Virus record (IMG/VR): IMGVR_UViG_3300025652_000683
Span: 1-21,075 of that record
DNA length: 21,075 nucleotides
Origin: a virus
Strand: one strand, 5' to 3'
In this document: positions 1 through 12,234 of the stretch, piece by piece
How the letters are laid out: the number at the start of each line of letters is the position of its first letter
Position numbering within the stretch: the first letter of the stretch is position 1
The notes under the pieces: generated by a model
Database searches by the model: none
Seen by the model: only the letters and a program-made list of their open reading frames with translations
Told to the model about the DNA's origin: nothing
Made by a program: the position numbers and the translations under genes

Positions 1-54
1 TAATAAGTTTTCTAGTTCTTTTTTAATTAAATTTATACGATAACCATAATTCAT
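1..54 (-). CDS. Start of an unidentified gene, cut by the left edge
   Basis: An ATG at 54-52 opens a frame with no stop to the window edge and reads MNYGYRINLIKKELENLL. Its ATG shares one base with the TAA of the initiator gene upstream (TAATG). The same tight coupling is used at several other junctions here, which is the main reason to believe the start. The visible 18 residues are lysine-rich and probably helical after residue 7. Being next after a replication initiator, it could be a helicase loader or another replication protein, but nothing in the visible part shows this. Confidence 0.55.
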   Translation of the reverse strand, partial: MNYGYRINLIKKELENLL

Positions 55-797
55 TAGTTTATACCTTTTTTAACTTCTAATATTCTTTCCATAGCCTTCT
101 TATATTCTAAACTATCTTTACCAAAAAGTGTATTAAAATACCAATCAGGTTCTATAGATTGCCAACCTTTTTCTTCACACATTGCCAAAGCATCTTCTGG
201 CGTTCCACCACCAACAAAAATATATCTTAACTTCTCAGCTAATCTTTTTGCTGCTGTTTCTGTAAGCTCTTTTTTAATTCCCTTGCGATATTTAATAAAA
301 CTATCTGCTGAATTTTCTTCTACTAACCATTCACATAAAATAGTCCTAACACTTATATAAGGTTTAATGGATGGTTCTAAGGATGGTTTGGGTGCATCTC
401 CTGCAGGGGTAGGGGTGCAGCTGCTGCGTGGGTAGGGGTGCATCTCCTGCAGGGGTGCAGCTGTTACATGGGGTTCTCTAGTGTTCTCAAGTGTTCCAAT
501 ACGTTCCAGGTTAAGAGAATAGTCTACAGTGTACCCAGTTTTACACTTTTTCTGTCCAGCCTCAGTTAATAAACCTGAAGAAACCATATCTCTCATATTT
601 GTCTGAAGCGTTCTAATAGCCATCTCCAAATCAGCAGCCATATTCTTTTTGCTAACCCAGATACCACTGCCATCATCACTAGCCTTGTCTGCCATATACA
701 TTAGGATTGCTTTTTGAGTAGTAGAACCAATCCGTTTTGTTTGGACTAAATTACTTACTAAATTTGACAATTTTTTTACCCTTTCTTTGTTGGGCAA
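54..797 (-). CDS. Winged-helix phage replication initiator-like protein
   Basis: This 247-residue protein probably binds the phage origin and starts replication. Residues about 16-90 look like the helix-turn-helix domain of phage replication proteins (RIGSTTQKAILMYMADKASD, then SKKNMAADLEMAIRTLQTNM, which fits the recognition region). Residues 105-145 are a Pro/Ala-rich linker whose DNA carries the iteron-like repeats at 390-459. Residues 150-247 form a helical C-terminal part with a GW-x-I-x-P type motif (GWQSIEP) seen in phage O-like and DnaD-like replication proteins. The start is weak: a TTG at 797-795 with an AAGG 14 bases upstream, and an in-frame TAA at 806-804 prevents extension. A second frame with a better ribosome site overlaps the start and may mean a frameshift (see findings). 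It lies downstream of the Cro-like gene in the same direction. Domain class is fairly sure; the initiator role is inferred. Confidence 0.75.
   Translation of the reverse strand: MPNKERVKKLSNLVSNLVQTKRIGSTTQKAILMYMADKASDDGSGIWVSKKNMAADLEMAIRTLQTNMRDMVSSGLLTEAGQKKCKTGYTVDYSLNLERIGTLENTREPHVTAAPLQEMHPYPRSSCTPTPAGDAPKPSLEPSIKPYISVRTILCEWLVEENSADSFIKYRKGIKKELTETAAKRLAEKLRYIFVGGGTPEDALAMCEEKGWQSIEPDWYFNTLFGKDSLEYKKAMERILEVKKGIN
390..459. repeat. Four iteron-like GGGTGCA repeats inside the initiator gene
   Basis: GGGTGCA occurs at 390-396, 413-419, 436-442 and 453-459, with spacings of 23, 23 and 17 bases. A 20-base direct repeat is exact at 391-410 and 437-456, a 13-base repeat (AGGGGTGCAGCTG) at 411-423 and 451-463, and another 13-base one (GGGTAGGGGTGCA) at 407-419 and 430-442. 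CTGCAG and CAGCTG palindromes each occur twice. On the coding strand the element is read as Ala-Pro, His-Pro, Thr-Pro and Ala-Pro, so it falls in three different frames. In lambda the origin iterons lie in the same kind of place, the linker of the O gene. Origin function is inference. Confidence 0.6.
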
Positions 798-867: not shown

Positions 868-896
868 CCCACAGTATTACCTCACTGTGGGTTTTT
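868..896 (+). terminator. Terminator-shaped hairpin, T-run on the + strand
   Basis: CCCACAGT (868-875) and ACTGTGGG (884-891) form a perfect 8-base-pair stem with an 8-base loop, followed on the + strand by TTTTT (892-896). This has the shape of a rho-independent terminator for rightward transcription, yet the genes on both sides are leftward. Read leftward there is no U-run after the stem, and the stop codon of the Cro-like gene falls in the loop. It may therefore act as a 3'-end hairpin or attenuator between the regulator and the initiator. Confidence 0.5.
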
Positions 897-1068
897 CCTT
901 TTCAATTAGGTAATCGGATAGTTTTTTAACTGTAGAATAATATACATCCTCACCTTTCATAATGCGGTAAACAGTATGCTTAGAAATGCCTACATCCCTT
1001 ATGACTTTAGCAAGAACACGCCCATCTAAACGCCTTACTATTTCCTCAGTTGTTAAAATATTTTCCAT
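877..1068 (-). CDS. Cro/CI-type helix-turn-helix regulator
   Basis: This 63-residue DNA-binding protein probably represses one or both of the promoters just upstream of it. Residues about 17-45 fit a lambda-repressor-type HTH (LAKVIRDVGISKHTVYRIMKG), and the protein is little more than this domain, as in Cro proteins. I chose the ATG at 1068-1066 because GGAGAC stands eight bases upstream. A longer frame to 1197 adds 43 hydrophobic residues that cross the promoter region and overlap the divergent gene, so it is not credible. The stop codon falls in the loop of the hairpin at 868-891. It is divergent from the rightward operon at 1158. Whether it is the only regulator of this phage cannot be seen here. 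Confidence 0.8.
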   Translation of the reverse strand: MENILTTEEIVRRLDGRVLAKVIRDVGISKHTVYRIMKGEDVYYSTVKKLSDYLIEKEKPTVR

Positions 1069-1157: not shown

Positions 1158-1406
1158 ATGGACAACAAACTAGGTCAAAAACATCCAAGCCCATCACAAC
1201 TACGGCTATATATAACTAATGCAATTTTAGAACTTAAAGACAAAGAATTTGCTGAAAGAAATTATGGCGAACCAGTTAAGTATACTTTTGGTGCAAAAGC
1301 CATCTCTGTTATAGATGAAGCAATAACAAAAGCTTGTAATGACTTTGATAAAGATGGGATTTTTGCTGGTATTCGCTCCAATAAAAAGGAGACAGAGGAT
1401 GCCTAA
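1158..1406 (+). CDS. Unidentified small early protein, first gene of the rightward operon
   Basis: This 82-residue protein was not recognised. It is charged and probably mostly helical, with no membrane segment or signal peptide. The start is an ATG preceded by AAGGTACG nine bases upstream. Its last codons overlap the start of the next gene by eight bases (ATGCCTAA), and the next gene's ribosome site (AGGAGA) lies inside it, so the two are translationally coupled. As the promoter-proximal gene of a recombination operon (annealing candidate, SSB, NinB-like), it may act in DNA metabolism or as a host takeover protein; the sequence itself does not say which. Confidence 0.75.
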   Translation: MDNKLGQKHPSPSQLRLYITNAILELKDKEFAERNYGEPVKYTFGAKAISVIDEAITKACNDFDKDGIFAGIRSNKKETEDA

Positions 1407-1989
1407 ATTACCAGAAAAGCTAGTTAAATTACTAGAAGAAATAAACATCACACAACATAAAGCAGTATGGGATTGTCACGGCACTCCTGTAATGCTGCAT
1501 AAAGCTTTAGAAAAAATAGCTGCACATAAAAATATTATGTTTGATGCACCACAGATTATATCTTGTGATGTCGCCTCTAAAGAAGCTGTTATATGCGTTA
1601 CAGGACACATGGAGAACGCTACAGAGTGGTCAATAGGTGAAGCTGCACCTTACAACAATAAAAACAGTTATCCGTTTGCTATGGCAGAAAAACGCGCCAA
1701 AGATCGTGTTATACTTAAACTTGTGGGCTTACATGGTGATGTATACTCAGAAGAAGAAGCAGACGATTTTAAAAACGCAAAGCCACAAGAGCAAGAATTT
1801 GCCGTTGCTAATATACAAGAAAAAGTGGATGCCTGGTTAGAGTTTTTTCAAACGTGTGGTTGGGATAAATTTAAAGCTAACCAAGCAAAATTTAAAAAAT
1901 TTCTTAACAACCCCAATATCAATGAAGATCAATATAACCAACTAATAGATGCAAGAGATAAATTAAATAAAGAATTTGGAGTGGAATAA
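1399..1989 (+). CDS. Putative phage single-strand annealing/recombination protein
   Basis: This 196-residue protein lies directly upstream of SSB. I chose the ATG at 1399 (AGGAGA seven bases before it) over an earlier in-frame ATG at 1339 that lies deep in the previous gene. Residues about 60-115 run CVTGHMENATEWSIGEAAPY and then SYPFAMAEKRAKDRVILKL. A conserved strand with a G-x-A motif followed by a helix with A-x-x-KRA-x-D-R resembles the core of Rad52/Sak/Erf-type annealing proteins (for example the S-x-A-x-KRA helix). Length and position fit that role, which would be homologous recombination of phage DNA together with the SSB. Family membership is by eye only; a conserved phage protein of other function remains possible. 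The C-terminus (from about 135) is helical and may be a separate domain. Confidence 0.5.
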   Translation: MPKLPEKLVKLLEEINITQHKAVWDCHGTPVMLHKALEKIAAHKNIMFDAPQIISCDVASKEAVICVTGHMENATEWSIGEAAPYNNKNSYPFAMAEKRAKDRVILKLVGLHGDVYSEEEADDFKNAKPQEQEFAVANIQEKVDAWLEFFQTCGWDKFKANQAKFKKFLNNPNINEDQYNQLIDARDKLNKEFGVE

Positions 1990-1992
1990 TCA

Positions 1993-2352
1993 ATGAAACA
2001 GATTACAATCGCTGGACGCGTAACAAAAAACGCAGAAGTAAAACAGTTTGATACAAATAGTGTTGTTAACTTTTCTGTAGCTGTTGACGATGGCTACGGA
2101 GAAAACAAAGGTACACTATTTTTTGACTGCGAATATTACAGAACAGGTATAGCAGATTATTTAGTAAAGGGTACGCCAGTTGTTGCTGTAGGTGAGCTAA
2201 AGACCAGGGAATATAACGGAAAGACTTATTTAAAGGTTAAAGTCCAAGATATTCAAATGATGGGTAAGGCTTCAAGTAACAGTTATTCTACTACACAGCA
2301 AAATGATCAGACACAAACCAATCAGGATATGGACGATGAAATCCCTTTCTAA
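1993..2352 (+). CDS. ssb: Single-stranded DNA-binding protein
   Basis: This 119-residue OB-fold protein coats single-stranded DNA during phage replication and recombination. The N-terminal strand is typical (ITIAGRVTKNAEVKQFD, then VVNFSVAVDDGY), followed by FFDCEYYRTGIADYLVKGTPVVAVGEL and YNGKTYLKVKVQDIQM. From about residue 95 there is a short flexible Gln/Asn/Ser-rich linker and the acidic tail MDDEIPF, the standard SSB tip that recruits partner proteins. It is shorter than E. coli SSB (178 aa) because the linker is short, as is usual for phage SSBs. It starts three bases after the previous stop, with GGAG at 1978-1981. The next gene overlaps its tail. Confidence 0.95.
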   Translation: MKQITIAGRVTKNAEVKQFDTNSVVNFSVAVDDGYGENKGTLFFDCEYYRTGIADYLVKGTPVVAVGELKTREYNGKTYLKVKVQDIQMMGKASSNSYSTTQQNDQTQTNQDMDDEIPF

Positions 2353-2743
2353 AATTCAGGTATACTTAAAAGATGGTCAATTGCTGCCATGTACTCAGTT
2401 TGACGCAGAACAAATAGAAGAACACAAACAAAGTCAGACGTTTGATTTAATAGCTACTGGTAAGCGATCTAACCCACATCACAGTTTGTATTGGGCAACA
2501 TTAAACAACGTGTGTAAGGCTACTGGAAAGTGGCCTACACATAGACACTTACACGATGAACTTAAATGGGCTTGTGGTTATGTGCGTATGCGTTGGAATG
2601 GTCTAGCAAACTGTCATATGCGAATAATTGATAGCATTAGTTTTGATGATATGGATCAAAAAGAATTTAATAAATACTTTGAAATGGCTATGGAAAAGTT
2701 GTCTGAGGCGATAGGTTATGACCCACTACACCGTAACCCCTGA
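2336..2743 (+). CDS. NinB/DUF1367-like phage protein
   Basis: This 135-residue protein matches the pattern of phage NinB/DUF1367-type proteins: a small N-terminal strand region, then RSNPHHSLYWATLNNVCKAT, a Trp-Pro motif, a helix starting with LHDELKWACGY, and a C-terminal helix opened by ISFDDMDQKEFNKYFEMAME. In lambda, NinB (Orf) is a recombination mediator that binds SSB and single-stranded DNA; the place right after ssb fits such a job. I chose the ATG at 2336, 17 bases inside ssb, because an earlier in-frame ATG (2303) would overlap ssb further and has no ribosome site. Family assignment is by eye. Confidence 0.6.
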   Translation: MKSLSKIQVYLKDGQLLPCTQFDAEQIEEHKQSQTFDLIATGKRSNPHHSLYWATLNNVCKATGKWPTHRHLHDELKWACGYVRMRWNGLANCHMRIIDSISFDDMDQKEFNKYFEMAMEKLSEAIGYDPLHRNP

Positions 2744-11999: not shown

Positions 12000-12234
12000 G
12001 GTGCTTTCCCTTCCCTCTTATGAGCGTGAGAGCGTCTATATCCGCTTGTAGTTCACGCTGGATTGCATTTAACGCTAGTATCATACTATGCGCCTTTTCA
12101 CGCTTTTCTACTTCCGTAGCCGCGCTATTCGCAAAAACATTCATTTGTTGTTCTCGCAAATTCTGCATGGTTTTCATAAACCAATCATTCTCTAATAAAG
12201 ATTTAGACCGTTTGGCCTTTTGCTCAATATCCAA
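11986..12234 (-). CDS. Small helical protein between portal and scaffold, 82 aa
   Basis: This protein starts at a TTG (12234-12232) that overlaps the portal end by 11 bases. The sequence KAKRSKSLLENDWFMKTMQN and the later HSMILALNAIQRELQADIDA follow the pattern of small helical proteins found between portal and scaffold genes in alphaproteobacterial phages, where the R-x-x-L-L-x-(D/N)-x-x-F motif recurs. Its role is not known to me. No ATG is available near the start, so TTG is the only credible choice; the conserved motif begins by residue 8, which supports it. Confidence 0.65.
   Translation of the reverse strand: MDIEQKAKRSKSLLENDWFMKTMQNLREQQMNVFANSAATEVEKREKAHSMILALNAIQRELQADIDALTLIRGKGKHRGND

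Follow-up and report, generated by a model that had tools for sequence, protein, structure and literature searches.

A probable lambda-type replication origin within the O-like initiator gene of a marine phage, and a phased AACC element adjoining its iterons

The 21-kb genome fragment of a marine phage analysed here (IMG/VR virus record IMGVR_UViG_3300025652_000683, positions 1-21,075, hereafter the window) very probably carries a lambda-type intragenic replication origin within an O-like initiator gene, as judged from comparison with related and known systems. Origins inside the initiator gene are already known in phages lambda, phi80, P22 and L, and the iteron part of the window adds to these. 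The more interesting points are the natural switches of initiator specificity found among relatives and a phased AACC element next to the iterons. The features are collected in Table 1.

Table 1. Features of the putative origin and its surroundings in the window.
Feature	Positions	Strand	Remarks
Downstream ~160-aa gene, start	1..54	-	ATG overlaps initiator stop; position of lambda P
O-like replication initiator ORF	54..797	-	TTG start, 247 aa; phrog_678 (1.7e-19) and other initiator PHROGs
C-terminal domain, residues ~145-247	57..365	-	Exchanged among relatives
Moderately A+T-rich stretch	261..360	-	70-75% AT in 40-bp steps, gene mean 62%
Phased AACC element AACCATCCTTAGAACCATCCATTAAACC	361..388	-	Putative strand-opening or strand-capture element; three AACC 12 bp apart
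Iteron 4: TGCAGGAGATGCACCC	390..405	-	Dyad, same letters as iteron 2
Iteron 3: CGCAGCAGCTGCACCC	413..428	-	One mismatch in left half
Iteron 2: TGCAGGAGATGCACCC	436..451	-	Dyad
Iteron 1: TGTAACAGCTGCACCC	453..468	-	Left half TGTA, a one-base variant; exact TGCA in relative L002
N-terminal winged-helix DNA-binding domain, residues ~12-101	495..764	-	AlphaFold2, pLDDT mostly 78-90
Predicted recognition helix, residues 61-74 (IRTLQTNMRDMVSS)	576..617	-	In relatives, Q65-T66-N67 change along with the iteron word
Small Cro-like HTH gene	877..1068	-	Upstream of initiator, same direction; phrog_18104 transcriptional regulator (1.9e-11)

The original prediction of an initiator-like protein is borne out by the match to phrog_678, while Pfam HTH_36 gives 24.7 bits, just below its cut-off of 25. 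AlphaFold2 models an N-terminal winged helix (helices 26-38, 50-57 and 61-74; strands 77-85 and 88-95), and most PDB structures matching the fold of the model are DNA-binding domains of the winged-helix type (best E 0.009). An O-like initiator with an N-terminal winged helix, as in a lambda-type origin, is thus present by PHROG assignment, model and fold matches. The complete protein has a mean pLDDT of 72, with a disordered linker at residues 109-143 followed by a helical C-terminal domain that is presumed, by analogy to lambda O, to contact the helicase or its loader.

GGGTGCA is found on the plus strand at positions 390, 413, 436 and 453, with the predicted spacings of 23, 23 and 17. The whole window holds 6 copies for 2.2 expected and the remaining two are isolated. 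Read as TGCACCC on the coding (minus) strand, the four copies occupy frames 2, 1, 0 and 2 and give the peptides AP, HP, (C)TP and AP, confirming that the same DNA encodes Ala-Pro, His-Pro, Thr-Pro and Ala-Pro in different frames. The four words fall inside the disordered linker, that is, between the DNA-binding and C-terminal parts, where they had been placed. Each of them forms the right half of a 16-bp dyad iteron, TGCA-N5-TGCACCC (minus strand). Since the left half, judging from relatives, counts too, the array runs from 390 to 468: the four 7-bp words initially described stand, but the 7-bp unit and the extent of 390-459 do not. The earlier description also recognised the GGGTGCA array while missing the GGTT/AACC repeat that adjoins it at 361-388. 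The window has four iterons within the initiator coding sequence, between its domains, and these are inverted repeats (TGCA-N5-TGCA, or TGAA-N5-TTCA in a sister clade), as in lambda-type origins.

A search left free to pick any four similar 16-mers at spacings of 14-28, with synonymous-codon resampling of the same peptide as null, returns exactly the 390-468 array with a score of 24.4. The 440 resampled sequences average 14.1 (sd 1.4, maximum 18.4) and none of them (0/440) reaches the window score. Used as positive controls, lambda (24.0) and P22 (22.8) have their annotated iterons recovered by the same program, spaced 20/24/23 in both and lying in several frames. Among 41 representatives of the window family, 35 score above all of their own synonymous nulls; L136, L159 and L214 show no clear excess over theirs. 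The spacing class alone was discarded as a significance test and the score was used instead: 517 of 2040 nulls land in the class, an unfair comparison because synonymous nulls keep part of the array via the peptide.

The arrangement is closest to that of the lambda origin in gene O, which likewise has mid-gene iterons ~330-350 nt into an O-like initiator gene, four inverted-repeat iterons read in several frames with a shorter first spacing (20/24/23 versus 17/23/23 in the window), and an opening region directly 3' of iteron 4, as proposed here. The lambda cro-O-P gene order also resembles the succession of a cro-like HTH gene, the initiator and a ~160-aa gene, although the iteron word is unrelated and the downstream gene of the window is not recognisably P. 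P22, L and phi80 (gene 18 or 15 origins) have their own iterons inside O-like genes too, with different words. P22 has the 20/24/23 spacing and, unlike the window, a DnaB-type helicase gene follows; phage L carries its own distinct repeat (PMC8022706). Annotated iterons start 20, 24 and 23 bp apart in lambda, and 20, 21 and 21 bp apart in phi80. The array of the window sits where those of lambda, phi80 and P22 are annotated, so that the parallel originally drawn with gene O is upheld, and this position, together with the conservation of the array but not of the peptide (see below), supports the reading as a candidate origin. Lambda O binds as a dimer to its iterons, which are inverted repeats, and opens the tract next to them; plasmid iterons bind monomers (PMC5043065). 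Iteron plasmids (RK2 with TrfA and others) have iterons beside a repeat-bearing opening element, a strand of which is captured by the initiator (PMC4081077), but in the Pfam comparison, the one made for homology, the window initiator gives no match to the double-winged-helix Rep proteins (TrfA/RepE), and its model combines one winged helix with an unrelated helical C-terminal domain, unlike the double winged helix of plasmid Rep.

Binding of an initiator inside its own gene would block transcription as well. Many initiators autoregulate, and the repeats could be initiator-binding sites whose main use is autoregulation or control of copy number, through a transcriptional roadblock or handcuffing, with replication starting elsewhere. 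We regard this as unlikely, for the corresponding arrays of lambda, phi80 and P22 serve as origin (PMC8022706) and an operator role leaves the conserved adjoining AACC element unexplained.

We privilege the reading of the array as an origin, and its evolution was followed in 43 IMG/VR loci related to the window initiator (L002-L044). All 17 close homologues (L002-L018) keep the four words at 17/23/23 while the linker peptide varies, in agreement with the claim that the DNA rather than the peptide is kept; alignment of homologues, suggested as a check for peptides that stay while repeats go, gives the opposite picture of repeats that stay while the peptide changes. A word changed singly, to TGCGCCC, is seen in L018. 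In L019-L025, whose DNA-binding domain is 72% identical to that of the window, three of the four words are TTCACCC instead of TGCACCC at unchanged spacing, a concerted change that forces the replacements Met to Val, Cys to Phe and Ala to Ser, each in a different frame. Iterons 2 and 4 of this sister clade are altered in both halves, giving TGAA-N5-TTCACCC, and iterons 1 and 3 in one half each. The loci that have the C-terminal domain alone in common with the window (L026-L044) have no such words, and a search of L033 found nothing comparable; the array thus follows the DNA-binding domain rather than the C-terminal one. The N- and C-terminal domains of the initiator are swapped independently, L019-L025 combining the DNA-binding domain and array of the window with a different C-terminal domain.

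In a scan of 2.9 million viral contigs, CACCC at 17/23/23 occurs at 28 loci, which are related sequences rather than independent events, and 28/28 are in O-like initiator genes: 27 belong to the window family and one (L051) is an initiator with a different N-terminus. An alignment search with the N-terminal domain finds 80 viral loci and 80 loci of GTDB, most of the GTDB ones from Rhodobacteraceae. De novo search in this wider family finds four dyads at 16-18/22-23/22-23 except in a few divergent relatives, with differing words and peptides; the first spacing is 17 outside the chromosomal group. Words are clade-specific (TGCA, TTCA, GTCCCGCWGCGGGAC, ACCGGTCAA and GGCCAC), the chromosomal group has a 16/23/23 spacing, and the arrays are weak or lost in several relatives of the SSRAVRxH clade (L099, L130). 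The L051 initiator, whose N-terminus is unrelated, carries five or more iterons TGAACRAYCGTTCACCCC at 12093-12160, with a spacer of 6 bp and, again, a TTCACCC core. In Rhodobacteraceae, chromosomal relatives of the initiator with an intragenic 16/23/23 array (L167, L182, L191, L199, L219 and others) occur near tRNA-Arg(CCT) or tRNA-Tyr genes (L182, L219, L199), beside MobC/NikA and relaxase genes (L182) or with a Mob_Pre gene (L199). These loci resemble mobilisable elements that have integrated and that carry a replication module of phage type.

The recognition-helix triplet was compared with the dyad half-site in the window family and in a Pseudomonas-type family that shares ~27-31% identity with it. 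The O-like initiators of Pseudomonas phages Itty13, LESphi3 and PotUPM1 have TGCACCC dyad iterons and a Q-type recognition helix like the window, but differ in protein sequence (~27-31% identity), iteron number and C-terminal domains. Counts refer to sequences with a recurring half-site, one mismatch being permitted in the tally; automatic calling of dyad centres on consensus matrices and a strict-palindrome tally were abandoned because their registers are unreliable. TGCA goes with helices QQA (32/32 scored sequences), QTN (15/15) and QGA (8/8), TTCA with RIH (20/23) and also with RQH, and TGCC with RNA (9/9), these counts not being independent events since the sequences cluster by descent. 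QKV and QKA pair with TTCA and QKC with TTCG (three QK sequences in all), the pairing of QK with TTC being seen in both families, while QRT and QRN pair with GTCA. The correlation is what direct reading of the iterons by the recognition helix predicts. Natural specificity changes of initiators become visible in this way, the helix and most iterons shifting together across codons in three frames, and, with many uncultured relatives to align, a code of DNA recognition by O-type initiators can be put to the test.

These data bear on two further explanations of the repeats. The array is a tandem repeat, with a 46-bp near-duplication, in a disordered linker of low model confidence, and its neighbouring units partly co-vary as expected from gene conversion; it might thus be a minisatellite born of replication slippage where a Pro-rich peptide is tolerated, without function as DNA. 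That possibility is strongly disfavoured: the spacings of 17, 23 and 23 are invariant though not multiples of three, unrelated words hold the same spacing and track the recognition helix, and synonymous resampling destroys the array. Selection on repeated (A/H/T)P motifs of the linker, compatible with the proline found at every word, is just as improbable, one DNA word encoding different residues in three frames and its change bringing radical residue changes in all three together.

Within the origin proposed here, a second element adjoins iteron 4 on its 3' side. GGTT is present on the plus strand at 361, 373 and 385 (AACC on the coding strand), a three-AACC pattern that occurs once in the window, no copy being expected by chance. 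It is kept as DNA: relatives conserve CAAACCATCC-N3-GAACCATCC in all three frames, read as KPSLEPS, NHPLNH and QTILEPSLN. Chains of at least three AACC at 10-12 bp are found in 36/41 representatives of the window family versus 15% of codon permutations, and in 45/46 members of the Pseudomonas-type family versus 4%. In Itty13, LESphi3 and PotUPM1 the phased AACC comes right after the last iteron, like in the window. AACC every 11-12 bp directly 3' of iterons is present also in L231-L238 and L245-L324, across unrelated O-type initiators; a scan with the L231 initiator matched itself alone. Scanning viral contigs for AACCATCCTTGAACCATCC yields 8 loci, of which 7 are O-like genes beside iterons; among these are three sets whose iterons are unrelated. 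Lambda and P22 have no AACC element and carry purine-rich ACAAAAGACA repeats in the corresponding place. Four phased GAACC words are common in initiator genes as well: of 44 ORFs sampled, 20-21 have an initiator PHROG match, 2 of the 44 having been added from the AACCATCCTTGAACCATCC scan and simple repeats being also among the matches. GAACC periodicity alone is not specific, because simple repeats make up many of the scan matches that lie outside replication genes. Other viral contigs (L357, L365, L388, L390, L404) have nearly perfect GGTTC repeats of 11 bp that lie beyond any recognised initiator ORF, and some of these repeats may be origins of other kinds.

The open-licence literature that was searched gave no account of the AACC element. 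The comparison suggests, with somewhat less than even confidence on our part, that about 3-4 AACC words phased at 11-12 bp form an undescribed second origin element common to several unrelated families of O-type initiators. As AACC is constant when the iteron word changes, its reader would be something common to these families, either intrinsic melting combined with strand capture or a host replication protein. The element may be a strand-opening or capture site by analogy to the lambda opening tract, of which O binds a single strand (PMC7466680), and to plasmid Rep proteins that capture repeat-bearing single strands (PMC4081077). It seems to be general, and gives the poorly understood step of strand opening a candidate that is defined by sequence. 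If the element is indeed shared in this way, it and the helix/iteron code would compose a modular two-part grammar for O-type origins. Origins of uncultured phages could be located from sequence through iteron spacing and AACC phasing.

For the events at 361-468 we infer the following sequence. The winged-helix domain, probably dimeric, would bind the four TGCA-N5-TGCACCC dyads in its own gene and the bound iterons would be bent into an O-some-like complex. The resulting strain would open the adjoining DNA, starting at the strand-asymmetric AACC element, and the opened strand would be captured. The C-terminal domain would then recruit the replicative helicase or its loader.

Besides the strand asymmetry of the AACC element, the presumptive opening region shows an adjoining A+T content that is only moderately raised. 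The A+T-rich stretch beyond the element is a possible, weak continuation of the opening region. The 60 bp past iteron 4 have 70% AT, a mild rise equalled or exceeded by 15% of windows that was not retained as origin evidence. GC skew, a check proposed with the original prediction, was calculated and set aside: it tracks gene orientation in the window, which makes it uninformative here. The ~160-aa gene, whose overlap with the initiator stop is complete in L002, has no Pfam, PHROG or lambda P match, and its candidacy as a lambda P homologue (probability 4%) was dropped. Divergent from the initiator, an early operon at 1158-2743 (plus strand) encodes SSB and a NinB/Orf-type protein, with two genes without family match ahead of them; this SSB/NinB operon runs the opposite way to the initiator.
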